Positions 19,205-61,452 of a stretch of DNA of 64,000 nucleotides are shown one piece after another. The DNA lies in the NCBI GenBank assembly GCA_947179485.1, contig CAMXBY010000063.1, positions 1 to 64,000 on the forward strand, read 5' to 3'. The notes below the pieces were generated by a model. It was not told the DNA's origin. It worked only from the letters and a program-made list of their open reading frames with translations, and did no database searches. A program made the position numbers and the translations under genes. Numbering within the stretch: position 1 is the stretch's first letter; every line of letters begins with the position of its first letter. This DNA is from Allacma fusca. Lineage: Eukaryota > Arthropoda > Collembola > Symphypleona > Sminthuridae.

Positions 19205-19209
19205 ACCCT

Positions 19210-23565: not shown

Positions 23566-23570
23566 ACCCT

Positions 23571-25281: not shown

Positions 25282-25601
25282 ATGGGAAGAAGGACTCACT
25301 TTGTTTTTTACGTCTGCGTTCTCTTATTACTTGTCACTATTATGGGGAGTACAGCTTCATGGGAAAGAATTTTGTGAGATATTTTTCCAGATAAAGCATT
25401 ATACTTATTCATATGAAAAAATACAAACACAATACAATCGTTTATTGACTTTTAATATTTTTTATAATTTCTTTTTTTTTTAGTAAAGCTTATAGACAAG
25501 GAGGAATTACTAAGCGTGGGCCATCGACATCGGGCGGGACTTGTGCAAGCATGACTATTTTGAATGGGAAATGTGTCATCAGCCGACCTCAAAAGGACTA
25601 A
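25282..25601 (+). CDS. Secreted cationic C-x9-C peptide precursor, type A0 (69 aa)
   Basis: Exon 1 is 25282-25373 and exon 2 is 25484-25601; the 110-bp phase-2 intron has donor GTGAGA and a T-rich acceptor. Exon 1 encodes a signal peptide: two Arg near the start, hydrophobic core FYVCVLLLLVTIM, then GSTAS as a likely cleavage region. The mature part is about 41 residues, basic (eight Lys/Arg against two acidic), with one Cys pair, C-x9-C, and LNGK before the second Cys. This is the most diverged member of the cluster but keeps the gene layout, signal-peptide motif and Cys spacing. A secreted defence or signalling peptide is inferred from size, charge and the disulfide pair; no known family was recognised. 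Confidence 0.75.
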
Positions 25602-25789
25602 TTTCAGAAGTATACATTTACAATTATTGCAACTGTAAAAAATATTAATTACCATTATTATATATTATAAACACATACGTGTGCGTCTAATGTGAACAAT
25701 TATGTAATGCTATACTTGTCACTTCATTAAATAAAAATATTTTAGTTTAATATCAACCATGTTGAAATAATTGGAATACGTGGATATTG
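25602..25789. other. 3' flank of peptide gene A0
   Basis: Presumed 3' UTR with AATAAA near 25731 (TTAAATAAAAAT). No gene. Confidence 0.35.
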
Positions 25790-25811
25790 CTTAGAATCAA
25801 TTTATTTGCCA

Positions 25812-25846
25812 AGCTTTCGAACTCAAACAGTGTTCATCTTCAGGGC
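25812..25846 (-). ncRNA. Hammerhead-ribozyme-like motif at the end of the Penelope-like fragment
   Basis: On the minus strand CTGAAGA (fits CUGANGA) is followed by a short GAAC...GTTC stem-loop and then GAAA, the order of hammerhead core elements. Penelope-like elements are known to carry hammerhead motifs in their terminal regions. Spacing before the stem is slightly irregular and stems I and III were not folded. Confidence 0.4.
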
Positions 25847-25986
25847 TTAATTATGACTAACTATGCTATCCTTGTTTGATGTAGTATTTATAAAAATTTT
25901 TACATTATTCTAATTTAAAATTATTGAGTTGTGAATATTTTGCAAAAAATAATTATTTTTTCAACAATTTAAATTAAAAAACAAGA

Positions 25987-26508
25987 TCAATCTATTAAAT
26001 TCGGGATTATTGGCTTCCATGCTTTGCTTAAAATAAAACCTTGGTTGACGTTCATCAATGACTGTTTTGATTGTTGGATAACTAAACCTTCCTTTATTTG
26101 TCGTAGGAAATGATTATGTTCGGGAACAACAATCTTTGCATCGTCCCATGCAATATGATGACTTCTGTTTCTTATTATGTGTCTTGCAATAGCTGATTTT
26201 TTATATTCTTTTCTTCTGACATTATCTTTATGTTCTTGTACTCTTGTGTTTAGGTGCCTATAGGTTTCCCCAACGTATATTGAATTGCAAGTATTACAAG
26301 GTATGATGTATACTCCAGCATTCTCAGAATTTTCTCCATCTTTTAAACTTTTCATTAAGTTTTGGATTTTTATACCGGGTAAGAAAGTAGGTTTCCATTT
26401 CAAGACTCTTCGCAAGTATCCTGCGATCCTATTAGAAATATTGCCTATGTATGGAATTGGAATCCATGGTTCAATCTTGTTTTCTGTTTCTATGATTGAT
26501 GAGAGCAA
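25987..26508 (-). pseudogene. GIY-YIG endonuclease domain of a Penelope-like element (173 codons, truncated)
   Basis: The frame contains GVYIIPCNTC at residues 65-74 (with a C-x2-C pair), YVGETYR at 78-84, an R in LNTR at 89, an EH pair at 92-93 and a late Glu in QIKEG near 140. This is the GIY...YVG...R...E pattern of GIY-YIG nucleases, which in Penelope-like elements nick the target DNA. The reverse transcriptase that should precede it is missing, so the copy is a dead remnant although this portion is still open. Confidence 0.8.
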
Positions 26509-26535
26509 ACTTTTTTCAAATTACAAAAAAAAAAT

Positions 26536-26576
26536 CATTTCTAAATTTCCCTGCTGACTATTATCTCCCTGCTGAT
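26536..26576. repeat. 41-bp fragment matching part of the MITE at 27262-27651
   Basis: The stretch beginning ATCATTTCTAAATTTCCCTG and running to CTCCCTGCTG is identical by eye to 27295-27335. It sits exactly at the truncated end of the Penelope-like fragment. Confidence 0.6.
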
Positions 26577-27253: not shown

Positions 27254-27261
27254 CATATATG

Positions 27262-27651: not shown

Positions 27652-27659
27652 CATATATG

Positions 27660-30567: not shown

Positions 30568-30921
30568 ATGGGGAGTAGGGCTAACTTTGTTATTTATGTC
30601 TGCGTGCTCTTATCAGTATTACTTGTCACCATTATGGGGAGTACAGCTTCAAGGGTTAGAATTATGTGAGATACTTTTCTCGTAATAATTTTATTATACT
30701 AGCATATATAAAATGTCTTTATATAATCATTTATTATTGAATTTAAACTGAATCTACATTTTAGCCGACCCCAAGGATGCCCACCAATTTCTCAGCGAAT
30801 TATAGCAGCCCCGAAGGGGAGTGCATGTGAAAACGGTCGAAGGTTTCACGGCTCATGTTTAAATGTACGTTTCATCCCGCGAAAATGCAAATCATTGACT
30901 CAAACGTCTAAATACTACTAA
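30568..30921 (+). CDS. Secreted cationic C-x9-C peptide precursor, type A1 (84 aa)
   Basis: Exon 1 is 30568-30665, intron 99 bp (GTGAGA...TTTTAG), exon 2 is 30765-30921. The signal peptide has core NFVIYVCVLLSVLLVTIM and cleavage region GSTAS. The mature peptide has about 56 residues, one acidic residue and more than ten Lys/Arg. It contains the family core APKGSACENG...HGSC (C-x9-C), plus one Cys before (GCPP) and one after (RKCKS), so two disulfides are possible. This is the only type-A copy in the window, apart from the diverged A0, that keeps its ATG; three later copies have ATA there. A Helitron begins at the base after the stop codon. Function is inferred only: secreted defence-like peptide. 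Confidence 0.75.
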
Positions 30922-31822
30922 CTAGTAAAAGCCCCTTGCTTCGCACAGGAGCAATTGCTTGTGTAAATAAATAGTGTAAATAATAAAAGTGTAAATGGCA
31001 ATAGATCTCGGTATAAGACGTGAAGTATTACTGTAAGACTAACAATTCGTTTCATATAGGTAGTTGACAATTCATCATCAAAATATTATGGGACAACAGC
31101 TTTCGGCCCACTAAAGTTTTCTCCCAAATTCACTATTTGGCTATACACGTGGAATTTAACTAACCGCTTGATCAATTTAATACCAACGTCGTTATTAAAT
31201 CTTGCTGTTGCATCACTGTATGGTGCTTCACTCCTTATTGTTAGTGGATCTGCACACCGTGCTGATCAAATATGATTTTTTATGTTATTATAATTTGTAT
31301 ATAAATCCGTTGTACCGCAATATTGTAACTGAAGCCTCAGACACTGGACGCACTGATTATTTAATTTTTCCTAGCAAGAATCCCACACTAATACGAACAA
31401 AGTTCAGTCATTAAAATTCTCCTCTTATCAAATTATTCTGTACTGTACCCGAACGTAGTTTTTCTCACTACCAGTCTTAATTTAATCCAAATTATTGATG
31501 ATTTATGTCTAATGTTTATATAATAATTATGATTAGCGCTTTTAAGTGATAATCTAAAATGGCATAATATTGAGAGCTTCCCTTCCAGTAGGCTGCAAGC
31601 AGTTGGTACATATATGATTAGCCGAGAAGAAAAGCGAGCTGAGCGAGCTGAAAAAGCTCTCCTCCTCCTCTGCGACAGAGTCTCAGCTTTCAGCCCGCTG
31701 TGCTTCTCGGATTGTTGTATATACCACCGACTTGCTTGGCTTAAGCCGGGATGGTTTGAATTCGTGAAATAAGCCGCGAAGGTTTAAATCAAAGGACAGG
31801 TCGAGAGCAATAAGAAGAAGGA
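30922..31822 (-). mobile_element. Non-autonomous Helitron (901 bp)
   Basis: Read on the minus strand it starts TCCTTC and ends with CTAG, preceded by a hairpin (GCTCC, loop containing GCGAAGC, GGGGC; plus 30931-30952). It sits between A and T. The homologous positions after copies A2, A3 and A4 read straight through (TACTACTAATTTCATT), giving three empty sites that fix both ends exactly. No Rep/helicase frame; short open frames inside look incidental. Confidence 0.85.
31622..31710. repeat. Imperfect hairpin inside the Helitron
   Basis: CCGAGAAG at the left and CTTCTCGG at the right close an imperfect inverted repeat that includes AGCGAGCTGA and CAGCCCGCT segments. It may simply be part of the element's 5' region. 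Confidence 0.5.
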
Positions 31823-33078: not shown

Positions 33079-33390
33079 ATGGGGAGTAGGACCAACTTTG
33101 TTATTTATGTCAGCGTGCTCTTATCCGTATTATTTGTCACCATTATGGGGAGTACAACCTCAAAGGTTAGAATTATGTGAGATATTTTTCCAGTAATAAT
33201 TATACAAGCATACAGAAAAATCTTTATATAATCGTTTATTATTGACCTTAAACTAATTAATCTACATTTTAGCGGACCCAAATTTAGAGGAATCCCATAA
33301 GCTCGTCGAGCAGTATCGCTGAGAGGGAGTGAATGTAAAAGCGGTCACAGTTCGAACGGTGCTTGTGTTAAGGGGCGTTTCATCTCGTGA
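33079..33390 (+). pseudogene. C-x9-C peptide gene type B1, premature stop in exon 2
   Basis: Exon 1 (33079-33176) has an intact ATG, signal peptide and donor, and the intron and acceptor are good. Exon 2 (33273-33390) shows an in-frame TAA at 33298-33300 only a few residues in, upstream of the Cys pair. The frame after it stays in phase to the usual TGA. The copy is therefore broken by one nonsense codon while the rest is well kept, suggesting recent loss or possibly a sequencing error. Confidence 0.7.
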
Positions 33391-34891: not shown

Positions 34892-35747
34892 AACGAAGGG
34901 AACCTTTGAGCCTGTGAGAGGGTTTCTGTCAAAGACGAATGTAAAAATTATCGTGTGTTTTGTTTGACCAAATAGCAAGACTGTGATTATTTTTTTAAAA
35001 TTTTTAAATTAAGGATTCAATATCGAATACCAGTACCGAATAAGAATAAGAAATAAAAAAGAAATTCCGTATTATTGGATTTTCAGTGTAAAATTTTCAA
35101 TTCCCACTTATTCAAATACTTGGATAAGACTTAATTTTTGGGTTTTAAAAATTATATAATTACGCATATTTTCCTTCCAGTGAAGTTGCAATTATTCCTG
35201 GGCCAAATGACTGACTATGTGGAGTGCATTTTGCGGCTGAAAAAAACTTTCCTCTAAGGGTTTGGTCAAACGATAACGAGTAATCAAGTGTTTTTATTTC
35301 TTTATGTTCTTGAAATTTCCGAAGTATCCAGGGAATATGAATGTAAGAATAATTAACACTATCATATTAAAATACCAAATATTTTCCTTAATATGTGTAT
35401 TACAAAGCCTGTTAAATTTTAGTTTTTAGAAGAATACGATTGATTTAATCACTTTGGGGTACCTCTATCGACTTTGAGGCTTTAAAATTCAAATTATGCA
35501 GAAATTTCCATGATAGTGGTTGCCTTTTACTTTTAGATAGGGTTCCATCGACATTTTGGTTGGCTTTAAATCATCATGTTTTTGTTATGTCCGATGTATA
35601 CAGCTTACAGCGTAAGAAATACACAGAGTGCCACAAAGGGATTGTTCCCCTATAGCCTGAAAAGGGGATTACACCTCTAAACGCACAAAATCTAAACGTA
35701 TAACAGCTAAACGTATAAGCTCAATACGCATAATCAGCTAAACGTAT
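34892..35747. other. Unit 1 spacer
   Basis: AT-rich spacer, partly shared with the diverged 26975-28560 region. No gene seen. Confidence 0.4.
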
Positions 35748-35905
35748 AAGGTATCTAAACGCATAATCGTCTAAACGTATAGGGTATCTAAACGCATAAT
35801 CACCTGTACGTATAGGGTATCTAAACGCATAATCACCTGTACGTATAGGGTATCTAAACGCATAATCACCTGTACGTATAGGGTATCTAAACGCATAAGG
35901 TAGCA
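35748..35905. repeat. 33-bp minisatellite, unit 1 (long allele)
   Basis: Tandem 33-bp repeats pair TATCTAAACGCATAATCACC with TGTACGTATAGGG. The CACCTGTACGTATAGGG form occurs three times in a row, followed by a last partial copy. Related TAAACGTATAA words extend left to about 35670. Confidence 0.8.
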
Positions 35906-36338
35906 AAATGTATAATAATGTACATGTATATATTGACACTCGTTTGAATAAGGCTAGTATTTTAATTCAGGGATCAAAACAATATTTAGCGTTCTACACA
36001 TTCCCTTGCAGCAGCATCGTCGTTAAAGGGATCAAATTGTCTATTGTATATTAAACCCACGTCTACATGTAATTTAAATAAAAGGAATATATACTAATAT
36101 TTAATAATAATAGTCTAAGTACAGGCAATGTGTACAGGCAAGTCCTTTAACTCTAACTCTAATAGTCCCAAGTAAGTAGCATTCTAACATTCTGTCAGTC
36201 CACTCAGTCGTGTAGTATCCATGCGTTATTAGTCCCTATCAGTCTCAGTCCTAGCAAAAATCTCAGTCAGTCCACTATGTATTTCGTATGCATTTAAGTC
36301 CAGAAGAGTACCACGTGTTGAGCATACACGTCTTCATT
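35906..36338. other. Spacer between minisatellite and 194-bp duplication
   Basis: No gene. A run of short AGTCC/CAGTC words occurs at 36145-36300. Confidence 0.35.
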
Positions 36339-37684: not shown

Positions 37685-37994
37685 ATGGGAAACAAGGCTT
37701 ACTTTATTATTTTTGTCTGCGTATTCATACTACTTGTCATCAACATGAGCAGTACAGACGCCTTTGCTAGATTTGGGTAAGATATTATCCTCAAAATCAT
37801 GCATTCACACTATTCACCTACAAACGTATAACTTACGTAATCGATTCCTGGCTTTAATCTTTAATAATTTATATTTTAGCGGAGTCCCGGGAAGAGGAAT
37901 AATGACCGGTCATATAACTTCCCCGAAGGGGAGTGGATGTGCAGGCGGTCGAGGTTTGAACGGTGGTTGTGTTAAGGGGCGTTTCATCCCGTGA
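37685..37994 (+). CDS. Secreted Gly-rich cationic C-x9-C peptide precursor, type C1 (68 aa)
   Basis: Exon 1 is 37685-37776, intron 103 bp (GTAAGA...TTTTAG, phase 2), exon 2 is 37880-37994 ending TGA. The signal peptide has core YFIIFVCVFILLVINM and cleavage region STDAFA. The mature peptide is about 40 residues: about 13 Gly, six Lys/Arg and no acidic residue. Its single Cys pair is CAGGRGLNGGC, followed by VKGRFIP. Small size, strong positive charge, high Gly and one disulfide fit a membrane-active hairpin-type antimicrobial peptide, but this is inferred from composition. Unlike A and B genes the donor is GTAAG and the start codon is not directly preceded by TTCCAGG. Confidence 0.78.
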
Positions 37995-39039: not shown

Positions 39040-39046
39040 TACATAT

Positions 39047-41012: not shown

Positions 41013-41366
41013 ATAGGGAGTAGGGCTAACTTTGTTATTTATGTCTGCGTGCTCTTATCTGTATTACTTGTCACCATTATGGGGAGTACAGCTCCAAGGG
41101 TTAGAATTATGTGAGATATTTTTCTCGTAATAATATTATTATACTAGCATATATAAAATGTCTTTATATAATCATTTATTATTGAATTTAAACTGAATCT
41201 ACATTTTAGCCGACCCCAAGGATGCCCACCAATTTCTCAGCGAATTATAGCAGCCCCGAAGGGGAGTGCATGTGAAAACGCTCGAAGGTTTAACGGCTCT
41301 TGTTTAAATGGACGTTTCATCCCGCGAAAATGCAAATCATTGGCTCAAACGTCTAAATACTACTAA
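41013..41366 (+). pseudogene. C-x9-C peptide gene type A2, start codon lost
   Basis: Exon 1 (41013-41110), intron and exon 2 (41210-41366) align base for base in layout with A1. The signal-peptide region, splice sites, four-Cys mature region and stop are open. The start codon is ATA instead of ATG. The frame is open upstream to an ATG at 40851, and another in-frame ATG lies late in the signal peptide. Neither would give a normal signal peptide at the N-terminus, so I call it a probable pseudogene. Confidence 0.6.
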
Positions 41367-42626
41367 TTTCATTCATTTGTATTTTAAGCATCAAAAAATA
41401 AGTTCAATTACATCAGTACAACTTACTGCAGGTTAAATTCATATCTGTGTATAATGAACAAAATGCTTCTGATTGAATATAATGAATAAATCAATGAAGG
41501 ATTTCCCAATTGATATTATGAAATTATTTCGTAGTAAACTACCAATAAAATTTCACATGACAAAAATTTTGGTTTTATTCCCAAAAGCGAGTGATAAAAT
41601 TGTGAGAATTCACGAATAGGCTGTATAGTTAATTAAATGCTGTGGATCCGTTTCCCATTGTACGTCCATTCTGTCTCCTTAAACGCCGTAGTTGAAATTA
41701 CAGCTGGTCCAAACCCATAACTTACAATGATTGCCATCTTGATTGACTTCCCTAATTGGAATGTCCATTAACTCGAATAATTCCATTAATAACAAAATTC
41801 TTACTGTCCTCATTTTACTCACTTTTAATTTCCTCGGACACTCCCCTAAATCTTCCCTGAAAAATTCCCCGGTCATGTCAACACTCTAACACAGACACAA
41901 ATGGCCTTGTTATAGGATGCATAGAAACCCCCAAAAATTTCCATCGAACCAGTGTCAAATCATTTCTGGGATAAATGATTAGCTTTGTAGGAACAAAGTA
42001 TTTGGGTATTTGAAATCTTTAAAAAATATCTACTTTAATTCACAATTTGGACGACTCTGAAATGGCAAGTATTATTGATACACGTGAAGAAATCGAATTT
42101 TGAAAAATCCTGGGAAATAATTTTCTTGAAAACGTTGGAATTATGTATTTTGTGACATTGTCTCCAACGTGGGCTAGGGGAATACAAAAGCTCATGAAAC
42201 ACCGTATAATTGACTTTTCCAGCTACACTGCCACGAAAATATATTAAAATAGATTATATTGTAGTAGATAATTTAGCCATACGATACAAAATTACCTACT
42301 TGACAACAGGAAAGTGTGGAGTTTATTTACTACTTGAGTCCTTGTCTTCCTCAAATTTTCCAAAGAATCGACAATAGATTTCTACAAATTGGTTTTTTTT
42401 GTGGCCTGCGGCTGCAATTAAATTCTCTGCCTAAGTATTTAAAAGGCAATCATGCAATAGCATTGGTATTCCCAAATCATCTGCTGGCAAAGGAGTATAG
42501 CTCCTGGAGTAATGTGTTAGCTCCCATCTGAAACTAAGACAATAGAATAATAATTAAACAATTGTTCAAAATCAAAATTAATACATCCATTTCTGTAACC
42601 TAGGAGTTCATCATTGTAATTCCAGG
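41367..42626. other. A2-B2 intergene
   Basis: It contains the empty Helitron site at its start and the 70-bp module (41498-41565). No gene supported. Confidence 0.4.
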
Positions 42627-44111: not shown

Positions 44112-44456
44112 ATGAACTACAATATTTTACACAATGGATGCTTACTAGTAGATAGTAGTTACAGTAATTACATTATTGTACAGAATCTGAAAAACTCCAC
44201 TAAAATGCTTTTCAACCTAAAAAGTTTAGTCTGCAGTGCTACATTCATTACAACAGCGGAAATTATCCGAGTATCAAAATTCAAATCCTTTTCCGATGAA
44301 AGTGACTTTATCAATGCCGTTTTTTGGTATTACTTCTCCCCAGCAAAACTAACCCGATTGCTAATGATCGTGACTCATAATTCAACGGTCACAGATTTTA
44401 TCATCCACGTTGCGCTAAAACTCCGCGATAGAAGAATTGTAACAACAAGTCCATAA
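44112..44456 (+). CDS. Unassigned 114-codon ORF, unit 2 copy
   Basis: Identical in translation to 34547-34891. No recognised domain. Confidence 0.3.
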   Translation: MNYNILHNGCLLVDSSYSNYIIVQNLKNSTKMLFNLKSLVCSATFITTAEIIRVSKFKSFSDESDFINAVFWYYFSPAKLTRLLMIVTHNSTVTDFIIHVALKLRDRRIVTTSP

Positions 44457-45312
44457 AACGAAGGGAACCTTTGAGCCTGTGAGAGGGTTTCTGTCAAAGA
44501 CGAATGTAAAAATTATCGTGTGTTTTGTTTGACCAAATAGCAAGACTGTGATTATTTTTTTAAAATTTTTAAATTAAGGATTCAATATCGAATACCAGTA
44601 CCGAATAAGAATAAGAAATAAAAAAGAAATTCCGTATTATTGGATTTTCAGTGTAAAATTTTCAATTCCCACTTATTCAAATACTTGGATAAGACTTAAT
44701 TTTTGGGTTTTAAAAATTATATAATTACGCATATTTTCCTTCCAGTGAAGTTGCAATTATTCCTGGGCCAAATGACTGACTATGTGGAGTGCATTTTGCG
44801 GCTGAAAAAAACTTTCCTCTAAGGGTTTGGTCAAACGATAACGAGTAATCAAGTGTTTTTATTTCTTTATGTTCTTGAAATTTCCGAAGTATCCAGGGAA
44901 TATGAATGTAAGAATAATTAACACTATCATATTAAAATACCAAATATTTTCCTTAATATGTGTATTACAAAGCCTGTTAAATTTTAGTTTTTAGAAGAAT
45001 ACGATTGATTTAATCACTTTGGGGTACCTCTATCGACTTTGAGGCTTTAAAATTCAAATTATGCAGAAATTTCCATGATAGTGGTTGCCTTTTACTTTTA
45101 GATAGGGTTCCATCGACATTTTGGTTGGCTTTAAATCATCATGTTTTTGTTATGTCCGATGTATACAGCTTACAGCGTAAGAAATACACAGAGTGCCACA
45201 AAGGGATTGTTCCCCTATAGCCTGAAAAGGGGATTACACCTCTAAACGCACAAAATCTAAACGTATAACAGCTAAACGTATAAGCTCAATACGCATAATC
45301 AGCTAAACGTAT

Positions 45313-45470
45313 AAGGTATCTAAACGCATAATCGTCTAAACGTATAGGGTATCTAAACGCATAATCACCTGTACGTATAGGGTATCTAAACGCATAATCA
45401 CCTGTACGTATAGGGTATCTAAACGCATAATCACCTGTACGTATAGGGTATCTAAACGCATAAGGTAGCA
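45313..45470. repeat. 33-bp minisatellite, unit 2 (long allele)
   Basis: Same copy number as unit 1, with three CACCTGTACGTATAGGG repeats. Confidence 0.8.
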
Positions 45471-45903
45471 AAATGTATAATAATGTACATGTATATATTG
45501 ACACTCGTTTGAATAAGGCTAGTATTTTAATTCAGGGATCAAAACAATATTTAGCGTTCTACACATTCCCTTGCAGCAGCATCGTCGTTAAAGGGATCAA
45601 ATTGTCTATTGTATATTAAACCCACGTCTACATGTAATTTAAATAAAAGGAATATATACTAATATTTAATAATAATAGTCTAAGTACAGGCAATGTGTAC
45701 AGGCAAGTCCTTTAACTCTAACTCTAATAGTCCCAAGTAAGTAGCATTCTAACATTCTGTCAGTCCACTCAGTCGTGTAGTATCCATGCGTTATTAGTCC
45801 CTATCAGTCTCAGTCCTAGCAAAAATCTCAGTCAGTCCACTATGTATTTCGTATGCATTTAAGTCCAGAAGAGTACCACGTGTTGAGCATACACGTCTTC
45901 ATT

Positions 45904-46302
45904 CAGGGTTGTAAAAAAACCGGATTTTATCAATAAAGGCCGAACCAGTGGCAAGAAATGGTAACAACCGGTTTTTATTGGACAGTGGATTTATTTGGAT
46001 AGTATTAAATTATGGCCATTTTATAACAACCTATACAACATCTCCAGACCGGTTAGAACCGGATTTTAACCAATAATGACCAGGCCATTTCTTGCCTTTT
46101 GCCAACCCTTTGTTAATGCATGCATAATATTAGCCAAGCTAGTGGCAAGAAATGGTAGAAACCGGTTTTTATTGGACAGTGGATTTATTTGGCCAGTATT
46201 AATTATGGCCATTTTATACCAACCTATACAACTGGTCCAAGCCAATTAGAACCGGATTTTAACCAATGCAGGCCATTCCTTTACGAAAATCCCCCTTTAT
46301 CG
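45904..46302. repeat. 194-bp tandem duplication, unit 2
   Basis: Same as 36339-36737. Confidence 0.6.
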
Positions 46303-47249
46303 AACCCCTTTAAAATTTAGTACAATTAAAGCTTTCCAGATTAATCTTATAAATTAACCCAATAGAATAATTTGACTCCAGCCAAAATTCCTACTGTCTT
46401 TATTTTTTCCCTTCTAATTTTCTCTCGAACTCCACAAATCGTCCCTAATTAATTCCCCGGTCTTGCTCACAATTCTAACACATATAAGAACTTGTTAGAT
46501 GAGTGCCTAACATTTCCCTAGAATTTCCAGCGAACCACCGTCAGACGATTTCTGGGATAAATGTTTAGCTATAATATAGGAACAAAGAATTTGAATATTT
46601 GAAATCTTCAAAAAATATCTACTTTAATTCATAATATTGACGACTGAGATGGCAAATACTATTGATCCACGTGAAGAAAACGAATTCTGAAAAATGTGAG
46701 AAATTTGCTTCAAAATGGTAGAATAATATATTTTTGTGACATTGTCTCCAACATATGGGCTAGGGGGATACAAAGGCTCATGAAAAATCCTAAACTTGAC
46801 TTTTCCAGCTACAATGCCACGAATATTAAAATACATAGATAAAAATGCAGAAGACAATTTAACCATACGATGCATAATTACATCCTTGAGTACAGCAAAG
46901 TCGAGGAACTTATTTACAATTTGATTCCTTGTTTTCCTCAGATTTTCCAAAGAATCCAGAATAAATTCCTATAAATTGGCTTCTCTTGTGGCCTGCGGTT
47001 GCAATTAAATTCTCCGATCTACCTAAATATTTACAAGGCAATCACGCAATAGCATTTGTATTCCCAAGTCATCTACTGACAAAGGAGTAGCTCCTGGAGT
47101 CAAATTAAAGCTCCTGAAACTAAGACATAACAATAACAATAATTAAACAATTGTTCCAAAACCCAATTCCTACAACCAAAAACTTCCTTTAAACTTCATA
47201 GTTCGATTTCAGAAATACAGTAGTAGCCTAACCAAGAATTTCACCGAAC

Positions 47250-47559
47250 ATGGGAAACAAGGCTTACTTTATTATTTTTGTCTGCGTATTCATACTACTT
47301 GTCATCAACATGAGCAGTACAGACGCCTTTGCTAGATTTGGGTAAGATATTATCCTCAAAATCATGCATTCACACTATTCACCTACAAACGTATAACTTA
47401 CGTAATCGATTCCTGGCTTTAATCTTTAATAATTTATATTTTAGCGGAGTCCCGGGAAGAGGAATAATGACCGGTCATATAACTTCCCCGAAGGGGAGTG
47501 GATGTGCAGGCGGTCGAGGTTTGAACGGTGGTTGTGTTAAGGGGCGTTTCATCCCGTGA
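47250..47559 (+). CDS. Secreted Gly-rich cationic C-x9-C peptide precursor, type C2 (68 aa)
   Basis: Exons 47250-47341 and 47445-47559. Sequence and predicted product match C1: signal peptide, phase-2 intron with GTAAG donor, about 40-residue mature peptide without acidic residues and with one C-x9-C pair. Two apparently identical copies would double the dose of the same peptide rather than diversify it. Confidence 0.78.
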
Positions 47560-48106
47560 ATATTAAATTTATTGAACCATACGCCGATGTAGGTCTAACT
47601 GCTATTCTCTGTATTTTGACCCATCTGGAATTAGTGCAATTATTACATCAGTACAATTTATTCCAAGTTAAACAAGTATTTGTGTATAATGTGCAAAGAG
47701 GTTAACTTGAAGCATGATTGAATAAAATTATGTCAATGAAGCATTTCCGGATTAATATTATGAAATTATTTCGTAGTAAACTACTAATAAAATGTCACAT
47801 GACAAAACTTTAGGTTTCATTATCAAAATCGAGCGTTAGAATTGTAAGAGCTCACGAATAGACGGTATAGTCAATTAAATGCTGAGATATGTTTCCCATT
47901 TTTCGTCCATTCTGTATCCCTTAAGTTGCAGTTGAAATTACAGCTGGCCCAAACCCATAATTTACAACGAGTGCCATCTTGATTGACTTCCCTAAACGGA
48001 ATTCAAAAGGAAATTAAGGTTATATATAGTAGACCATACATAACAGTTACAATGAGATTTCAATAGAAATTCACCAAACATATGTAACAACAAAATGTAT
48101 ACATAT

Positions 48107-48604
48107 CTCTAGCGTGGTCCTGCTGTTCCAAATTATTAGAGAATGCTTCTAGGATTCCCTTTCCTCTGCAGATTCCGTGGCACTTGCGAGTGGAGAAATG
48201 AAAAATAATTGATGCTGCAGTAGACAAATTGAGTGTTCTCCCAGGCAAAGGAAAAAGAATACTTTTTAATATACTTTTCAAAATTATATTTTCTTCAACA
48301 AAAATAAATAAAAATGAAGGGAGCTCAGCTCATCTCAATTCCAAAAACCAGAATGACCTGCTGCTCTGGAGAATGATCTCACGCATGAGATTTTCTCAGA
48401 GCCAAAACTGTTTCCACCTCTCCTCTTTTAGTACTCTTGCAGAGTACTCCTCCGCGTAACATTGACATGACCCATACATATTTCCTCCTTCCCTCAACTT
48501 TGGCTTCATGAATTCTTAGTTTAAAGCTTGACTGTACCAACCTTTCCCCCATGCAAAATACACACACAGTAGAACCTTAATACTGTAAGCCATAAGTGCT
48601 ACAG
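48107..48604. mobile_element. 498-bp insertion, unit 2 copy
   Basis: Same insertion, same TACATAT duplication and same position as in unit 1, so it was present before these two units separated. Confidence 0.7.
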
Positions 48605-50577
48605 TACATATCGTCATTTAAATCTTGACTCAAAGTCTTACCTCACTTCCAATAATTTCCATGAAAGGTACTTGCAGCGCCCAGTCAGAATGCCGGCCAA
48701 ATGTTACTTTTTGAAGAGTACGAGTGATTCTACCACTTTGGGGTTCCTTCGATCGACTTTGAGGCTTTGAAATCCAAATTATACAGAAATTTGTATATTA
48801 GTGATTTCCTTCTATTTTTCGATAGAATTCCATCGATATTGTGGTATATATGGTTTTAAATCATCCCCATGTTTTGGTCATATCAAATCTATACAACACA
48901 CAGTGATTAGTATTACACAGAGTGCCACAAAGGGATTGTTCCCCTTTAGCCTACACAAGGGACAACCGTAAACACATTAAATTTCTCTATGACTGCGAGC
49001 AAACGATTCCCCACATTTTTAAAAATTTGTTTCTTCCTGCTGGTTCAAAAACTCTGGATCTGGTTTATTAACTTAGGTTCAGAATTGGGGTCACAACCTG
49101 GAAAATCCTGAAGAATATTGCGAGTTATAATTCTATGAGTTATTGCGGATTTTAAATTTCACATTTTTTTCAATCTCCCCAAAAAATATTACGATAAAAT
49201 TGAAAAAACTAAACAAACTCACCCAAATATTCCTCCAAAAATTCTCCGGTCTTGTCCACAATTCTAACACATAAATGAACGTTAATGGATGCCTAAATAC
49301 CAACTAAAAAATCCCAACGAACCAGTGTCAAATGATTTCTGGGATAAATGTGTAGCTCTGTAGAAACAAAGTATTTGAATATTTGCAATCTTCAAAAAAG
49401 ATCTACTGTGATTCACAATTAGACAGTGACGGCAATTACTATTGATCCAATTGAAGAAAACGAAATAATTATTACAAAAGTCTGAGACATAATTTGCTTG
49501 AAAACGGTGTAATCATGTATTTAACATTATCTCTAACATGGGCCAGGGGATACAAAGACTCGTATTGCAAAATCGTATTGCAGGAGAAAAGACGATCCTT
49601 TTTGTCCAATACTTGAAATCCTCCCATTGATTGCTCATTAAGGCTTTTGCAAGGAACAAACCCAGACGGAACTAACCCCCATGGAACTGACCGACTGGTC
49701 AAAAGATTACCAACCGAAGTATTCAAATTTGATGGATTCGTAAAACCTGAACAATACAAAAGTCTGAAATTAAGTTTCAAAATTTGAAGCGTTTTACATT
49801 CGTTAATTGAAATTCCTATTGAACATGTAATATTTTGTACGTTCCAAGTAGAACTAATTTCATTATTGTGTATATATTTTGAACGCCCAGAAATAAGTTG
49901 AATTCCATTAGTAAAACATATTCCAGGTTAAATATTTGCATATTTGTGCATAATGTGCAAAATGCTTTAATTTGTCGAAGGATTTCCCAATTGATATTAT
50001 TAAGGCATTTCGTAGCAAACTAATTATATATTTCACATGAAAACAATTATGATTGTGTGAGGATTTTGTACGCATGCCGTTATTATGGACAAGGCTATAC
50101 CTGACCGCAATACCAAGTACATTATTAAACTTCAATCGATTTCAGTATACGGTTGATAATTTTATTGCGGGTTTGGATTTCGAGGAAGACATTAAATATC
50201 AATTGGTTTTTACACGAAAAAAGCAAACTCGCGAAGAGTATTTATTAATTTACGTCGGCCTCTTCCTTCAGATTTCCACATAATCCAAAATAAGTCGGTA
50301 CATTATTGGTGTTGGGATTCCGGCCTGCGGTTCCAATTCCTCCAAGTGAATTTGTCTTTTTCCAGTCCAATGGCAATGAAATGTGAATATTAGTGGCTTG
50401 TCATAAATCATCTGTTTGGAAAGGAGACGCTCCAGGGTTCACATTTTAGCCTCAAACTGGGATCTGCTATTACGAAATAACGTAAAATTCCTAAACAAAA
50501 TTTCCAAACCAAGGAGCCATCTTCAAAATTTATATTTCCATTTCTGTAACGTTAGAGTTCCTCGTTGTAATTCCAGG

Positions 50578-50931
50578 ATAGGGAGTAGGGCTAACTTTGT
50601 TATTTATGTCTGCGTGCTCTTATCTGTATTACTTGTCACCATTATGGGGAGTACAGCTCCAAGGGTTAGAATTATGTGAGATATTTTTCTCGTAATAATA
50701 TTATTATACTAGCATATATAAAATGTCTTTATATAATCATTTATTATTGAATTTAAACTGAATCTACATTTTAGCCGACCCCAAGGATGCCCACCAATTT
50801 CTCAGCGAATTATAGCAGCCCCGAAGGGGAGTGCATGTGAAAACGCTCGAAGGTTTAACGGCTCTTGTTTAAATGGACGTTTCATCCCGCGAAAATGCAA
50901 ATCATTGGCTCAAACGTCTAAATACTACTAA
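50578..50931 (+). pseudogene. C-x9-C peptide gene type A3, start codon lost
   Basis: Same ATA in place of ATG as A2, with exon 1 50578-50675 and exon 2 50775-50931 otherwise open. Confidence 0.6.
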
Positions 50932-52191
50932 TTTCATTCATTTGTATTTTAAGCATCAAAAAATAAGTTCAATTACATCAGTACAACTTACTGCAGGTTA
51001 AATTCATATCTGTGTATAATGAACAAAATGCTTCTGATTGAATATAATGAATAAATCAATGAAGGATTTCCCAATTGATATTATGAAATTATTTCGTAGT
51101 AAACTACCAATAAAATTTCACATGACAAAAATTTTGGTTTTATTCCCAAAAGCGAGTGATAAAATTGTGAGAATTCACGAATAGGCTGTATAGTTAATTA
51201 AATGCTGTGGATCCGTTTCCCATTGTACGTCCATTCTGTCTCCTTAAACGCCGTAGTTGAAATTACAGCTGGTCCAAACCCATAACTTACAATGATTGCC
51301 ATCTTGATTGACTTCCCTAATTGGAATGTCCATTAACTCGAATAATTCCATTAATAACAAAATTCTTACTGTCCTCATTTTACTCACTTTTAATTTCCTC
51401 GGACACTCCCCTAAATCTTCCCTGAAAAATTCCCCGGTCATGTCAACACTCTAACACAGACACAAATGGCCTTGTTATAGGATGCATAGAAACCCCCAAA
51501 AATTTCCATCGAACCAGTGTCAAATCATTTCTGGGATAAATGATTAGCTTTGTAGGAACAAAGTATTTGGGTATTTGAAATCTTTAAAAAATATCTACTT
51601 TAATTCACAATTTGGACGACTCTGAAATGGCAAGTATTATTGATACACGTGAAGAAATCGAATTTTGAAAAATCCTGGGAAATAATTTTCTTGAAAACGT
51701 TGGAATTATGTATTTTGTGACATTGTCTCCAACGTGGGCTAGGGGAATACAAAAGCTCATGAAACACCGTATAATTGACTTTTCCAGCTACACTGCCACG
51801 AAAATATATTAAAATAGATTATATTGTAGTAGATAATTTAGCCATACGATACAAAATTACCTACTTGACAACAGGAAAGTGTGGAGTTTATTTACTACTT
51901 GAGTCCTTGTCTTCCTCAAATTTTCCAAAGAATCGACAATAGATTTCTACAAATTGGTTTTTTTTGTGGCCTGCGGCTGCAATTAAATTCTCTGCCTAAG
52001 TATTTAAAAGGCAATCATGCAATAGCATTGGTATTCCCAAATCATCTGCTGGCAAAGGAGTATAGCTCCTGGAGTAATGTGTTAGCTCCCATCTGAAACT
52101 AAGACAATAGAATAATAATTAAACAATTGTTCAAAATCAAAATTAATACATCCATTTCTGTAACCTAGGAGTTCATCATTGTAATTCCAGG

Positions 52192-52516
52192 ATGGGGAGT
52201 AGGACCAACTTTGTTATTTATGTCAGCGTGCTCTTATCTGTATTACTTGTCACCATTATGGGGAGTACAACCTCAAGGGTTAAAATTATGTGAGATATTT
52301 TTCCAGAAATAATTATACTAGCATACAGAAAATTCTTTATATAATCGTTTATTATTGACCTTAAACTTTATTTATCTACATTTTAGCGGACCCAAATTTA
52401 GAGGAACCCCAAATTTAGAGGAACAACTTCGTCGAGCAGTATCGCTGAGAGGGAGTGCATGTGAAAGCGGTCACAGTTTGAACGGTGCTTGTGTTAAAAG
52501 GCGTTTCATCTCGTGA
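52192..52516 (+). CDS. Secreted cationic C-x9-C peptide precursor, type B3 (75 aa)
   Basis: Exons 52192-52289 and 52387-52516. Product the same as B2, including the linker duplication. ATG, splice sites and stop are intact. Confidence 0.78.
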
Positions 52517-53677
52517 ATATCCAAATTATTGAATCAAAGGACTATGTAGGACTATAGTTGCATTCCTCTGTATTTTGACCCTTCTGAAATTAGTTCAATT
52601 ATTACATCAGTAAAATTTATTCCAAGTTATAAATACATATTTGTATACAATTTGTAAAAAGCTTTAATTGTAACTTCATTGAATAAAATTATGTCAAAGA
52701 AGGATTTCTCGATTGATATTATGAAATATTATTTTGTAGTAAACTACTATTAAAATTTCATATGACAAAAATTTTGGTTTCGTTATCAAAATCGAGGGTC
52801 AAAATTGTGCGAGCTCACGATTAGACTTAGACAATTAAATGCTGTGATATGTTCCCCATTTTTCGTCCATTCTGTATCCCTAACGCTGCTGAGTTGAAAT
52901 TACAGCTGGCCCAAACCCATAACTTACAATGAGTACCATCTTGATTGACTTCCCAAAATGGAATTCCAAAGGAAATTAAGACCATATACATTGGTTGCAA
53001 TGAGATTTGAATAGAAATTCATCAAACATATGTACATAACTACAAAATGTCTGCAAGGGTCCTTTTGTTGTATCTCCCCAAAATGGTATCTCCTTCATAT
53101 GATGACAAGTACTCAGTCTTCTGTTATTCTTAAAATATTGAAAGCCAAAGTATCCACAGATTATTGACTGCAATCTAGAGTTTTCTGGATCAAACTACAA
53201 ACTATTTCCCTTGATACCTGGGCAATAAATATACATATATAGATAGCAAATTTTACTGTTTTAACACAAATATCGGAAACATTTGAAACGGTACCTCGAA
53301 CGATTAGCTGCCTTCAAAAGTGAAATTTTGACATGGTGTCCCAAGTGGTTTATCTTACTATTAGATAGGATTCCATTGATAGGTCTCAGCGTCATTTATC
53401 AGAAAATTAACATGATGCTGAATATGGAGTAATGAATGGTTAGATACGGGATGATTCTTTATTAGTCAAATAATTCTTCCTTACATGTAAACACTTGAGA
53501 ATTATGTCCCTAAAATAAATAACCAATGAAACAATTCTATTAAAATTAAGCAAATTTATATCACGTCCACTTACCAAACAACTATTTTCCAAGGGAGACA
53601 CCCTGGGAATGACTTAATAATTATTTCCGGAAACTTGTTCAGTTTCGTCCCATCGTACACCCAATTAACCTCGCTCC

Positions 53678-54022
53678 ATGAACTACAATATTTTACACAA
53701 TGGATGCTTACTAGTAGATAGTAGTTACAGTAATTACATTATTGTACAGAATCTGAAAAACTCCACTAAAATGCTTTTCAACCTAAAAAGTTTAGTCTGC
53801 AGTGCTACATTCATTACAACAGCGGAAATTATCCGAGTATCAAAATTCAAATCCTTTTCCGATGAAAGTGACTTTATCAATGCCGTTTTTTGGTATTACT
53901 TCTCCCCAGCAAAACTAACCCGATTGCTAATGATCGTGACTCATAATTCAACGGTCACAGATTTTATCATCCACGTTGCGCTAAAACTCCGCGATAGAAG
54001 AATTGTAACAACAAGTCCATAA
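53678..54022 (+). CDS. Unassigned 114-codon ORF, unit 3 copy
   Basis: Identical in translation to 34547-34891. No recognised domain. Confidence 0.3.
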   Translation: MNYNILHNGCLLVDSSYSNYIIVQNLKNSTKMLFNLKSLVCSATFITTAEIIRVSKFKSFSDESDFINAVFWYYFSPAKLTRLLMIVTHNSTVTDFIIHVALKLRDRRIVTTSP

Positions 54023-54878
54023 AACGAAGGGAACCTTTGAGCCTGTGAGAGGGTTTCTGTCAAAGACGAATGTAAAAATTATCGTGTGTTTTGTTTGACC
54101 AAATAGCAAGACTGTGATTATTTTTTTAAAATTTTTAAATTAAGGATTCAATATCGAATACCAGTACCGAATAAGAATAAGAAATAAAAAAGAAATTCCG
54201 TATTATTGGATTTTCAGTGTAAAATTTTCAATTCCCACTTATTCAAATACTTGGATAAGACTTAATTTTTGGGTTTTAAAAATTATATAATTACGCATAT
54301 TTTCCTTCCAGTGAAGTTGCAATTATTCCTGGGCCAAATGACTGACTATGTGGAGTGCATTTTGCGGCTGAAAAAAACTTTCCTCTAAGGGTTTGGTCAA
54401 ACGATAACGAGTAATCAAGTGTTTTTATTTCTTTATGTTCTTGAAATTTCCGAAGTATCCAGGGAATATGAATGTAAGAATAATTAACACTATCATATTA
54501 AAATACCAAATATTTTCCTTAATATGTGTATTACAAAGCCTGTTAAATTTTAGTTTTTAGAAGAATACGATTGATTTAATCACTTTGGGGTACCTCTATC
54601 GACTTTGAGGCTTTAAAATTCAAATTATGCAGAAATTTCCATGATAGTGGTTGCCTTTTACTTTTAGATAGGGTTCCATCGACATTTTGGTTGGCTTTAA
54701 ATCATCATGTTTTTGTTATGTCCGATGTATACAGCTTACAGCGTAAGAAATACACAGAGTGCCACAAAGGGATTGTTCCCCTATAGCCTGAAAAGGGGAT
54801 TACACCTCTAAACGCACAAAATCTAAACGTATAACAGCTAAACGTATAAGCTCAATACGCATAATCAGCTAAACGTAT

Positions 54879-54970
54879 AAGGTATCTAAACGCATAATCG
54901 TCTAAACGTATAGGGTATCTAAACGCATAATCACCTGTACGTATAGGGTATCTAAACGCATAAGGTAGCA
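54879..54970. repeat. 33-bp minisatellite, unit 3 (short allele)
   Basis: Only one CACCTGTACGTATAGGG repeat, two fewer than units 1 and 2, a 66-bp difference. Confidence 0.8.
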
Positions 54971-55409
54971 AAATGTATAATAATGTACATGTATATATTG
55001 ACACTCGTTTGAATAAGGCTAGTATTTTAATTCAGGGATCAAAACAATATTTAGCGTTCTACACATTCCCTTGCAGCAGCATCGTCGTTAAAGGGATCAA
55101 ATTGTCTATTGTATATTAAACCCACGTCTACATGTAATTTAAATAAAAGGAATATATACTAATATTTAATAATAATAGTCTAAGTACAGGCAATGTGTAC
55201 AGGCAAGTCCTTTAACTCTAACTCTAATAGTCCCAAGTAAGTAGCATTCTAACATTCTGTCAGTCCGCTCACAATCAGTCGTGTAGTATGCATGCGTTAG
55301 TCCCTATCAGTCTCAGTCCTAGCAAAAATCTCAGTCAATCCATTATGTATTTCGTATGCATTTAAGTCCAGAAGAGTACCACGTGTTGAGCATACACGTC
55401 TTCATTCAG

Positions 55410-56559: not shown

Positions 56560-57031
56560 ATGGGAAACAAGGCTTACTTTATTATTTTTGCCTGCGTATT
56601 CATACTACTTGTCATCAACATGAGCAGTACAGACGCCTTTGCTAGATTTGGGTAAGATATTATCCTCAAAATCATGCATTCACACTATTCACCTACAAAC
56701 GTATAACTTACGTAATCGATTCCTGGCTTTAATCTGTAATAATTTATATTTTAGCGGAGTCCCGGGAAGAGGAATAATTACCGGTCACATAACTTCCCCG
56801 AAGGGGAGTGGATGTGCAGGCGGTCGAAGTTTGAACAGTCGTTGTTTAACGGGGCGTTTAAACTTTATTAATCTACATTTTAGCGGACCCAAATTTAGAG
56901 GAACCCCACGTAGTAGAGCAGTATCGCTGATAGGGAGTGAATGTAAAAGCGGTCTCAGTTTGAACGGTGGTTGTGTTAAGGGGCGTTTCATCCCGCGAAA
57001 ATTCAATTTATTGAACCATACGCCGATGTAG
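56560..57031 (+). CDS. Chimeric two-domain C-x9-C peptide precursor, C3 (122 aa)
   Basis: Exon 1 (56560-56651) encodes a type-C signal peptide; intron GTAAGA...TTTTAG; exon 2 (56755-57031) is more than twice the usual length. The first part is a type-C mature region with pair CAGGRSLNSRC. Instead of stopping it runs through a stretch that is the 3' end of a type-B intron (ending CTACATTTTAG at about 56881) and then a complete type-B-like mature region with pair CKSGLSLNGGC. The frame stays open through the former intron end to TAG. Two outcomes are possible: one precursor with two Cys-pair domains, or alternative acceptors at 56755 and about 56882 that would join exon 1 to either domain. The phase-2 junction fits both. 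Function inferred as for the other members. Confidence 0.72.
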
Positions 57032-59513
57032 GTCTAACTGCATTCCTCAGTATTTTTAGCCACCTGAAATTAGTGCAATTATTACATCAGTACCATTTAT
57101 TTCAAGTTAAACAAGTATTTGTGTATAATGTGCAAAGAGGTTAACTTGAAGCATGATTGAATAAAATTATGTCAATGAAGCATTTCCGGATTAATATTAT
57201 GAAATTATTTCGTAGTAAACTACTAATAAAATGTCACATGACAAAACTTTAGGTTTCATTATCAAAATCGAGCGTTAGAATTGTAAGCGCTCACGAATAC
57301 AGGGTATAGTCAATTAAATGCTGAGATATGTTTCCCATTTTTCGTCCATTCTCTATCCCTTAAGTTGCAGTTGAAATTACAGCTGGCCCAAACCCATAAT
57401 TTACAACGAGTGCCATCTTGATTGACTTCCCTAAACGGAATTCAAAAGGAAATTAAGGTTATATATAGTAGGCCATACATCAGTTACAATGAGATTTCAA
57501 TAGAAATTCACCAAACATACGTAACAACAAAATGTATACATATCGTCATTTAAATCTTGACTCAAAGTCTAACCTCACTTCCAATAATTTCCATGAAAGG
57601 TACTTGCAGCGCCCAGTCAGAATGCCGGCCAAGTGTTACTTTTTGAAGAGTACGAGTGATTCTACCACTTTGGGGTTCCTTCGATCGACTTTGAGGCTTT
57701 AAAATCCAAATTATATAGAAATTTTCGTATTAGTGATTTCCTTTTATTTTTAGATAGAATTCCATCGATATTGTGGTATACATGGTTTTAAATCATCCCC
57801 ATGTTTTGGTCACATCAAATCTATACAACACACAGTGATTAGTATTACACAGAGTGCCACAAAGGGATTGTTCCCCTTTAGCCTACACAAGGGACAACTG
57901 TAAACACATTAAATTCCTCTATGACTGCGAGCAAACGATTCCCCACATTTTTTAAAATTTGTTTCTTCCTGCTGGTTCAAAAACTCTGGATCTGGTTTAT
58001 TAACTTAGGTTCAGAATTGGGGTCACAACCTGGAAAATCCTGAAGAATATTGCGAGTTATAATTCTATGAGTTATTGCGGATTTTAAATTTCACATTTTT
58101 TTCAATCTCCCCAAAAAATATTACGATAAAATTGAAAAAACTAAACAAACTCACCCAAATATTCCTCCAAAAATTCCCCGGTCTTGTCCACAATTCTAAC
58201 ACATAAATGAACGTTAATGGATGCCTAAATACCAACTAAAAAATCCCAACGAACCAATGTCAAATGATTTCAGGGATAAATGTTTAGGTCTGTAGAAACA
58301 AAGTATTTGAATATTTGAAATCTTCAATAAAGATCTACTGTGATTCACAATTAGACGACAGTGTCGGCAATTACTATTGATCCAATTGAAGAAAACGAAA
58401 TAATTATTACAAAAATCTGAGACATAATTTGCTTGAAAACGGTGTAATCATGTATTTAACATTATCTCTAACATGGGCCAGGGGATACAAAGGCTCGTAT
58501 TGCAAAATCGTATTGCAGGAGGAAAGACAATCCTTTTTGTCCAATACTTTAAATCCTCCCATTGATTGATCATTAAGACTTTTGCAAGGAACAAACCCAG
58601 ACGGAACTAACACCCATGGAACTGACCGACTGGTCAAAAGATTACCAACTGAAGTATTCAAATTTGATGGAATCGTAAAACCTGAACAATACAAAAGTCT
58701 GAAATTAAGTTTGCAAAATTTGAAGCGTTTTACATTCGTTAATTGAAATTCCTATTGAACATGTAATATTTTGTACGTTCCAAGTAGAACTAATTTCATT
58801 CCTGTGTATACATTTTGAACGCCTAGAAATAAGTTGAATTCCATTAGTAAAACATATTCCAGGTTAAATATTTGCATATTTGTGCTTAATGTGCAAAATT
58901 CTTTAATTTGTCGAAGGATTTCCCTATTGATATTATTAAGGCATTTCGTATCAAACTAATTATATATTTCACATGAAAACAATTATGATTGTGTGAGGAT
59001 TTTGTACGCATGCCGTTATTATGGACAAAGCTATACCTCACCGCAATACCAAGCACATTATTAAACTTCAATCGATTTCAGTATACGGTTGATAATTTTA
59101 TTGCGGGTTTGGATTTCGAGGAAGACATTAAATATCAATTGGTTTTTACACGAAAAAAGCAAACTCGCGAAGGGCATTTATTAATTTACGTCGGCCTCTT
59201 CCTTCAGATTTCCACATAATCCAAAATAAGTCGGTACATTATTGGTGTTGGGCTTCCGGCCTGCGGTTCCAATTCCTCCAAGTGAATTTGTCTTTTTCCA
59301 GTCCAATGGCAATGAAATGTGAATATTAGTGGCTTGTCATAAATCATCTGTTTGGAAAGGAGACGCTCCAGGGTTCACATTTTAGCCTCAAACTGGGATC
59401 TGCTATTACGAAATAACGTAAAATTCCTAAACAAAATTTCCAAACCAAGGAGCCATCTTCAAAATTTATATTTCCATTTCTGTAACGTTAGAGTTCCTCG
59501 TTGTAATTCCAGG

Positions 59514-59867
59514 ATAGGGAGTAGGGCTAACTTTGTTATTTATGTCTGCGTGCTCTTATCTGTATTACTTGTCACCATTATGGGGAGTACAGCTCCAAGG
59601 GTTAGAATTATGTGAGATATTTTTCTCGTAATAATATTATTATACTAGCATATATAAAATGTCTTTATATAATCATTTATTATTGAATTTAAACTGAATC
59701 TACATTTTAGCCGACCCCAAGGATGCCCACCAATTTCTCAGCGAATTATAGCAGCCCCGAAGGGGAGTGCATGTGAAAACGCTCGAAGGTTTAACGGCTC
59801 TTGTTTAAATGGACGTTTCATCCCGCGAAAATGCAAATCATTGGCTCAAACGTCTAAATACTACTAA
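59514..59867 (+). pseudogene. C-x9-C peptide gene type A4, start codon lost
   Basis: Exon 1 59514-59611, exon 2 59711-59867. It has the same ATA start as A2 and A3 and is otherwise open. Confidence 0.6.
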
Positions 59868-61127
59868 TTTCATTCATTTGTATTTTAAGCATCAAAAAAT
59901 AAGTTCAATTACATCAGTACAACTTACTGCAGGTTAAATTCATATCTGTGTATAATGAACAAAATGCTTCTGATTGAATATAATGAATAAATCAATGAAG
60001 GATTTCCCAATTGATATTATGAAATTATTTCGTAGTAAACTACCAATAAAATTTCACATGACAAAAATTTTGGTTTTATTCCCAAAAGCGAGTGATAAAA
60101 TTGTGAGAATTCACGAATAGGCTGTATAGTTAATTAAATGCTGTGGATCCGTTTCCCATTGTACGTCCATTCTGTCTCCTTAAACGCCGTAGTTGAAATT
60201 ACAGCTGGTCCAAACCCATAACTTACAATGATTGCCATCTTGATTGACTTCCCTAATTGGAATGTCCATTAACTCGAATAATTCCATTAATAACAAAATT
60301 CTTACTGTCCTCATTTTACTCACTTTTAATTTCCTCGGACACTCCCCTAAATCTTCCCTGAAAAATTCCCCGGTCATGTCAACACTCTAACACAGACACA
60401 AATGGCCTTGTTATAGGATGCATAGAAACCCCCAAAAATTTCCATCGAACCAGTGTCAAATCATTTCTGGGATAAATGATTAGCTTTGTAGGAACAAAGT
60501 ATTTGGGTATTTGAAATCTTTAAAAAATATCTACTTTAATTCACAATTTGGACGACTCTGAAATGGCAAGTATTATTGATACACGTGAAGAAATCGAATT
60601 TTGAAAAATCCTGGGAAATAATTTTCTTGAAAACGTTGGAATTATGTATTTTGTGACATTGTCTCCAACGTGGGCTAGGGGAATACAAAAGCTCATGAAA
60701 CACCGTATAATTGACTTTTCCAGCTACACTGCCACGAAAATATATTAAAATAGATTATATTGTAGTAGATAATTTAGCCATACGATACAAAATTACCTAC
60801 TTGACAACAGGAAAGTGTGGAGTTTATTTACTACTTGAGTCCTTGTCTTCCTCAAATTTTCCAAAGAATCGACAATAGATTTCTACAAATTGGTTTTTTT
60901 TGTGGCCTGCGGCTGCAATTAAATTCTCTGCCTAAGTATTTAAAAGGCAATCATGCAATAGCATTGGTATTCCCAAATCATCTGCTGGCAAAGGAGTATA
61001 GCTCCTGGAGTAATGTGTTAGCTCCCATCTGAAACTAAGACAATAGAATAATAATTAAACAATTGTTCAAAATCAAAATTAATACATCCATTTCTGTAAC
61101 CTAGGAGTTCATCATTGTAATTCCAGG

Positions 61128-61452
61128 ATGGGGAGTAGGACCAACTTTGTTATTTATGTCAGCGTGCTCTTATCTGTATTACTTGTCACCATTATGGGGA
61201 GTACAACCTCAAGGGTTAAAATTATGTGAGATATTTTTCCAGAAATAATTATACTAGCATACAGAAAATTCTTTATATAATCGTTTATTATTGACCTTAA
61301 ACTTTATTTATCTACATTTTAGCGGACCCAAATTTAGAGGAACCCCAAATTTAGAGGAACAACTTCGTCGAGCAGTATCGCTGAGAGGGAGTGCATGTGA
61401 AAGCGGTCACAGTTTGAACGGTGCTTGTGTTAAAAGGCGTTTCATCTCGTGA
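61128..61452 (+). CDS. Secreted cationic C-x9-C peptide precursor, type B4 (75 aa)
   Basis: Exons 61128-61225 and 61323-61452. Product the same as B2 and B3, with intact ATG, splice sites and stop. Confidence 0.78.

Follow-up and report, generated by a model that had tools for sequence, protein, structure and literature searches.

We report that a 64,000-nucleotide stretch of the genome of the springtail Allacma fusca (hereafter the window; positions 1 to 64000 of C68, a 92,689-base contig in the 392,743,791-base, 91-contig assembly) carries a tandemly amplified family of short two-exon genes whose predicted products are small basic peptides with cysteines spaced nine residues apart (C-x9-C). 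Twelve exon 1/exon 2 pairs, all on the forward strand, span positions 25282 to 61452 (Table 1). That they specify a real, expressed family of secreted peptides is, in our judgment, highly probable. The fuller explanation that we consider best, a locus-restricted, two-exon secreted-peptide family that functions in defense, is evenly balanced, and in it we infer secretion, the disulfide, and the defensive role. The family appears to be fast-evolving, ordinary in kind, and new in sequence, and the searches reported here turned up no known relative.

Gene plan and predicted peptides

The twelve pairs share a single plan, in which an exon 1 of the signal-peptide type is followed by a phase-2 intron of 96 to 110 bp (with the acceptors chosen here) that begins with a GT[AG]AG donor, and then by an exon 2 that harbors the cysteines. 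A first-pass annotation of the window had proposed this arrangement with an intron of about 100 bp, and the three splice junctions that it named prove to be exact (introns 30666-30764, 37777-37879, and 42725-42821, each in phase 2 with a GT[AG]AG donor and a TAG acceptor). The type D intron has an alternative acceptor, which ends at 25495. The same annotation counted twelve gene copies; the exon pairs are all present, but only seven are plain, intact two-exon genes; a further four are damaged, and the remaining copy is a C/B fusion. Because the modules that carry them are recent tandem duplicates, the twelve encode only seven distinct precursors (type B is identical in three copies, type A lacking its ATG in three, and type C in two). 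They are not twelve independent witnesses, and the count overstates the independent evidence. The decay of copies that had also been claimed is visible as a stop in exon 2 of the copy at 33079 and as ATA in place of the start ATG at 41013, 50578, and 59514.

The assignment of exon 1 to the signal-peptide type is borne out by its composition. When the 342 open frames of 31 codons that begin with ATG in the window are ranked by hydropathy, nine of the top ten are family exon 1s, and a hydrophobic exon 1 with plausible cleavage residues at −3 and −1 is found in all nine sequences examined; the peptides are apparently secreted. The C-x9-C motif recurs in exon 2 of every window copy, that at 33079 being counted by reading past the stop, and a search of all six frames of the entire window with the pattern C-x6-[NHDS]-G-x-C, which overlooks the first loop of the fusion copy at 56560 (LNSRC), returns 12 matches, all in family exons. 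The pair had been described as invariant, which is true of its presence but not of the cysteine content, as types B, C, D, and E have two Cys in exon 2 and type A has four, with a C-x9-C-x9-C arrangement; "a pair" is therefore an incomplete description of type A. The NG step occupies loop positions 7 and 8, adjoining the second Cys, and is therefore not the tip of a symmetrical hairpin. Across 11 gene models, exon 2 encodes five to ten Lys and Arg versus zero to four Asp and Glu, and window type C has no acidic residue in exon 2 and 34% Gly, in agreement with the earlier description.

Two copy-number states of what is probably one locus

Self-comparison of the window confirms the tandem amplification proposed for it, in the form of a B-C-A module of about 9 kb that is repeated at two intervals of about 9.5 kb followed by one of 8.9 kb. 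The four modules (m1 to m4) are 94.6 to 100% identical in long blocks, a range that excludes alignments of one gene type with another within modules (about 80%). The stretch 31822-45397 matches 41366-54963 at 98.9% identity, and m2 and m4 share 4,032 bp without one difference; between m1 and m2 the difference is 1.4% across 9.57 kb, and m3 and m4 depart from them in length and in having a different, C/B copy.

A second cluster is found at 42,653,174-42,706,713 of C1, a chromosome-size contig of 81,893,619 bases in the same assembly, and the two contigs differ in copy number. C1 carries types D, A, B, and C once each and has one A-B-C module, versus at least four modules on C68, which in all holds one D, five A, four B, two C, and two C/B copies, together with a B-like E copy at 84982. 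The gene at C1:42653174 encodes the same predicted protein as the window type D gene, and the window type A gene at 30568 has its counterpart at C1:42665575. Damaged copies are present on both contigs: a type A-like gene at C1:42705362-42706760 is interrupted in exon 2 by an insertion of about 1 kb that has ACTGGGAGT on both sides, a decayed exon 2 near C1:42683870 has lost its first Cys, and at C68:92568-92689, close to the contig end, a type C exon 1 is cut short and runs into unrelated sequence. No other convincing family locus is found among the genome matches listed for three protein queries, which include two stray matches with expectation values (E) of 0.76 and 0.88.

To the left of the cluster, window positions 516-19214 are collinear with C1 at 98.9 to 99.5% identity, apart from a gap at 5889-6529, and positions 23566-26333 match C1 at 99.7%. 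The BEL/Pao retrotransposon at 19210-23565 is a very recent polymorphic insertion; its target duplication, as read from the flanks, is ACCCT, and the empty site is found at C1:42651458. Two stretches, of about 7.1 kb (42654225-42661339) and about 9.1 kb (42673077-42682225), are present on C1 and absent from C68. From the collinear left flank and the empty retrotransposon site we infer that the contigs are allelic, C68 most likely being an unplaced contig that represents the second haplotype; the amplification thus looks to be confined to one of the two parental copies of the locus.

Chimeric peptides have arisen by recombination within or next to the Cys ring. In the fusion copy at 56560, type C exon 1, the intron, and most of type C exon 2 are joined to the tail of a type B intron with its acceptor, followed by type B exon 2, the change from C-like sequence occurring at about +300; a fusion copy of the same type at C68:65495 gives a model of 122 residues. 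Counted from the ATG, window type C resembles its C1 counterpart as far as roughly +260 to +300 and is B/E-like thereafter; with the Cys codons of window type C at +253 and +283, this places the switch inside the ring or immediately after it. Since the 56560 copy retains the C1-like ring end, window type C seems likelier to be the recombinant than the ancestral form. The fusion gene could possibly yield two peptides through the use of either acceptor.

Relatives outside the window

With the four window types as queries, a search of 5.8 billion proteins (550 candidates) found a single match, P0001 (E 1.3e-23), a 77-residue protein encoded on a 985-bp Joint Genome Institute (JGI) contig. Its residues 1-32 match C1:42682621 (97%) and its residues 30-77 match C1:42682811 (88%); relative to the C1 type C model, P0001 is identical in exon 1, and in exon 2 it carries four substitutions and ends differently. 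P0001 reads straight through the point at which a 103-bp intron interrupts the genomic sequence, and each of the 20 listed genome matches covers only part of its length; its likeliest source is therefore a spliced transcript from this or a closely related species, a reading that would indirectly support both splicing and transcription.

Beyond P0001, no relative was found among the same 5.8 billion proteins either with P0001 as the query or with three C1/C68 sequences. The first-pass annotation recognized no known family, and we likewise obtained only chance-level matches in Pfam (eight precursors; best E 0.13) and NCBIfam (three precursors; best E 0.11) and no meaningful match among PDB sequences by phmmer or profile (best E 1.2). 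A scan of viral contigs and a plasmid search with a 601-base query returned no relatives. The window itself has no Rfam match at the gathering threshold and no tRNA found by scanning. A literature search, which covered few subscription journals, found nothing that joins Allacma fusca and antimicrobial peptides.

Sequence evolution

In all 16 pairs compared, exon 1 shows greater similarity than its own intron; exon 2 is less similar than the intron in 10 of these pairs and more similar in six. Silent divergence is likewise raised in exon 2 in many pairs, so that the contrast with exon 1 could also stem from recombination among older variants. The pooled ratio of nonsynonymous to synonymous divergence (dN/dS), calculated from 36 pairs that are not independent, comes to 0.70 in exon 1 and 0.85 in exon 2, that is, weak constraint overall. 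Over a 16-codon core in seven sequences, the tree length is 1.34, the same as that of the introns (1.34), and neither Cys codon has changed, versus ≈7.1 amino-acid-changing hits expected at the intron rate; here the motif itself served to align the codons, which favors conservation of the Cys. By a reckoning made by hand, two unchanged codons anywhere among the 16 have a chance of about 1/8; the calculated chance is about 0.001 if both Cys codons are named beforehand. A core that evolves at the rate of the introns around unchanged Cys codons therefore suggests that the ring is retained and that everything else is nearly free to change or is diversifying. The first-pass annotation held that a lack of purifying selection on exon 2 in related species would argue against its proposal, and the outcome is divided, with little constraint over exon 2 as a whole but no change in the Cys codons. 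We considered positive selection on exon 2 but do not claim it, given a dN/dS near 1 and pairs that are small and non-independent.

Comparison with known peptide families

Twin CX9C (CHCH) proteins are mitochondrial helix-turn-helix proteins with two CX9C motifs and no signal peptide. The C-x9-C spacing is their sole likeness to the family described here, in which type A has C-x9-C-x9-C and the fusion copy at 56560 has two separate loops; a protein of this kind was ruled out by the signal-like exon 1, the lack of a Pfam CHCH match, and the single motif in types B, C, D, and E. In the human DEFA1/DEFA3 defensin clusters, the number of defense-peptide genes reportedly differs between haplotypes. 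These vertebrate clusters, by description another gene family, are similar in that copy number differs between haplotypes; the springtail difference is seen between two contigs of one assembly.

The ring of thanatins has six residues between its Cys. The family ring has nine, a low-confidence structure prediction for type A exon 2 has no strands, and the family peptides give no meaningful PDB sequence match and no Pfam match above chance that would place them among peptides of the thanatin kind. What they would share with thanatins, which are single-disulfide β-hairpin antimicrobial peptides (AMPs) of true bugs, is a short peptide from a larger precursor with one disulfide (PMC13001179). Collembolan AMP families, which in the account of Pradhan and Engsontia (2023) comprise diapausin, Alo, diptericin, defensin, and cecropin, resemble this family in being short secreted springtail peptides with gene gains and losses (PMC10051947). 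As characterized there, Alo and defensin have six Cys, as opposed to two (types B, C, D, and E) or four (type A) in the family exon 2, and collembolan diptericins and cecropins lack Cys in the mature peptide, unlike the exon 2 pair of all twelve copies (PMC10051947). Allacma does not appear in the main text of that survey, and none of its descriptions consulted here is of a single C-x9-C family (PMC10051947).

Candidate function and alternative explanations

We propose that exon 1 would be removed as a signal peptide and that exon 2 would yield a basic peptide of about 25 to 50 residues with an 11-residue ring (C-x9-C) closed by one disulfide. Released into the hemolymph or gut or onto the cuticle, such peptides may act as cationic antimicrobial or antifungal defense peptides that bind negatively charged microbial surfaces. 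Unequal crossing-over and recombination inside exon 2 would diversify them, with the signal exon and ring kept and the rest swapped and mutated, and with copy number differing between what look like two haplotypes of one animal. The signal exon, the basic Cys-paired product, the tandem amplification, and the copy-number difference would together fit host-defense peptides best, and this is the likeliest assignment in our analysis. In its most specific form, namely, a new springtail single-ring (C-x9-C) host-defense family at one locus, with one module on one haplotype of an animal and at least four on the other, in which crossovers inside or next to the ring (window type C) and exon fusion (56560) keep making new peptides within the species, the proposal is tentative and falls somewhat short of an even chance.

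Several observations weigh against the explanation that we consider best. In nine 600-bp upstream regions, there is no excess of kB motifs (0, 1, and 1 for three forms versus 0.56, 1.92, and 2.70 expected) or of GATA motifs (10 versus 16.1 expected). AlphaFold2, with six alignment rows for type A exon 2, returns a mean predicted local distance difference test (pLDDT) score of 48.4 and no strands, and the idea of a β-hairpin is therefore unsupported. The C_c1 exon 2 has four acidic versus six basic residues, pooled constraint on both exons is weak, and four of the twelve window copies are broken. TATA motifs in the same upstream regions also show no excess (9 versus 11.6 expected). The STAT-like motif TTCNNNGAA is counted 10 times versus 4.5 expected, which corresponds to five palindromic sites, each counted on both strands, upstream of A_c1, A_w30, B_c1, C_w37, and C_c1; the type C site lies 10 bp before the ATG, and the sites are in part one site common to related copies and hence not independent.

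The lack of a kB excess also counts toward a different secreted role, whether reproductive (spermatophore or accessory gland), as a cuticular or defensive-gland secretion, or as intercellular signals, with diversification driven by conflict or communication and not by microbes. The gene plan equally fits any fast-evolving secreted peptide family, and types D and B and C_c1 have a dibasic site 8 to 11 residues before the first Cys of the ring, as in processed signaling peptides; such sites are absent from types A and E and from C_w37, however, and a basic composition and a copy-number difference are usual for defense peptides, so that a role of this kind is rather unlikely, although not negligible. 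If the array were instead mostly nonfunctional and decaying, its motif retained only through the youth of the copies, the broken copies, the split exon 2 at C1:42705362, and a pooled dN/dS near 1 would be readily accounted for. This would leave the retention of frame, splice sites, and both Cys codons in seven diverged sequences to be explained, as well as the greater conservation of exon 1 over its own intron in every pair and the differences between P0001 and the C1 type C model, which are confined to exon 2 with frame and ring kept, and we judge it improbable. An assembly artifact, in which a looped repeat on an unplaced contig inflates the copy number, is suggested by the shortness of C68 and by its near-identical modules, above all the 4,032 bp shared by m2 and m4. 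It is improbable given the 1.4% difference between m1 and m2, the different length and C/B copy of m3 and m4, and an assembly described as built from HiFi reads at 80-fold (PMC10427803).

Other features of the window

A 33-bp/17-bp minisatellite occurs once per module, at 35677-35915, 45242-45480, 54808-54980, and 63743-63915. An insert of about 900 bp lies directly after the type A stop codon at 30922-31821 and is missing behind the C1 type A copy and the type A copy at 41013. Adjoining the type D gene, an open frame on the reverse strand (25987-26520) encodes a GIY-YIG domain (Pfam E 9.5e-07), which we take to be the remnant of a Penelope-like element. At 2477-3112, one stretch is present in two inverted copies with the same frames on opposite strands, possibly a foldback element.

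Table 1. Family gene copies and associated repeats in the window (window coordinates).
Feature	Position	Exons and intron	Strand	Remarks
Type D gene	25282-25601	exon 1 25282-25373, intron 25374-25483, exon 2 25484-25601	+	intact
Type A gene	30568-30921	exon 1 30568-30665, intron 30666-30764, exon 2 30765-30921	+	intact; four Cys in exon 2
Type B copy	33079-33390		+	stop in exon 2; frame ends at 33300
Type C gene	37685-37994	exon 1 37685-37776, intron 37777-37879, exon 2 37880-37994	+	intact
Type A copy	41013-41366		+	ATA for start ATG
Type B gene	42627-42951	exon 1 42627-42724, intron 42725-42821, exon 2 42822-42951	+	intact
Type C gene	47250-47559		+	intact; protein identical to that of 37685
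Type A copy	50578-50931		+	ATA for start ATG
Type B gene	52192-52516		+	intact; protein identical to that of 42627
C/B fusion	56560-57031		+	two C-x9-C loops; open frame to 57031
Type A copy	59514-59867		+	ATA for start ATG
Type B gene	61128-61452		+	intact; protein identical to that of 42627
Tandem array of B-C-A modules	31822-64000			continues beyond the window; from self-comparison
BEL/Pao LTR (long terminal repeat) retrotransposon	19210-23565		+	868-bp LTRs, 100% identical; 5-bp target duplication; absent from C1

Possible implications for springtail host defense

The survey of springtail AMP genes was homology-based, and its authors suspected that there are unrecognized families (PMC10051947). 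Springtails live in microbe-rich soil, and the locus described here is a concrete, small candidate for such an unrecognized AMP family. One assembly seems to offer two haplotype states of it, amplified and not, together with chimeric products that have readable breakpoints, and the birth of new secreted peptides could therefore be followed directly at this locus.

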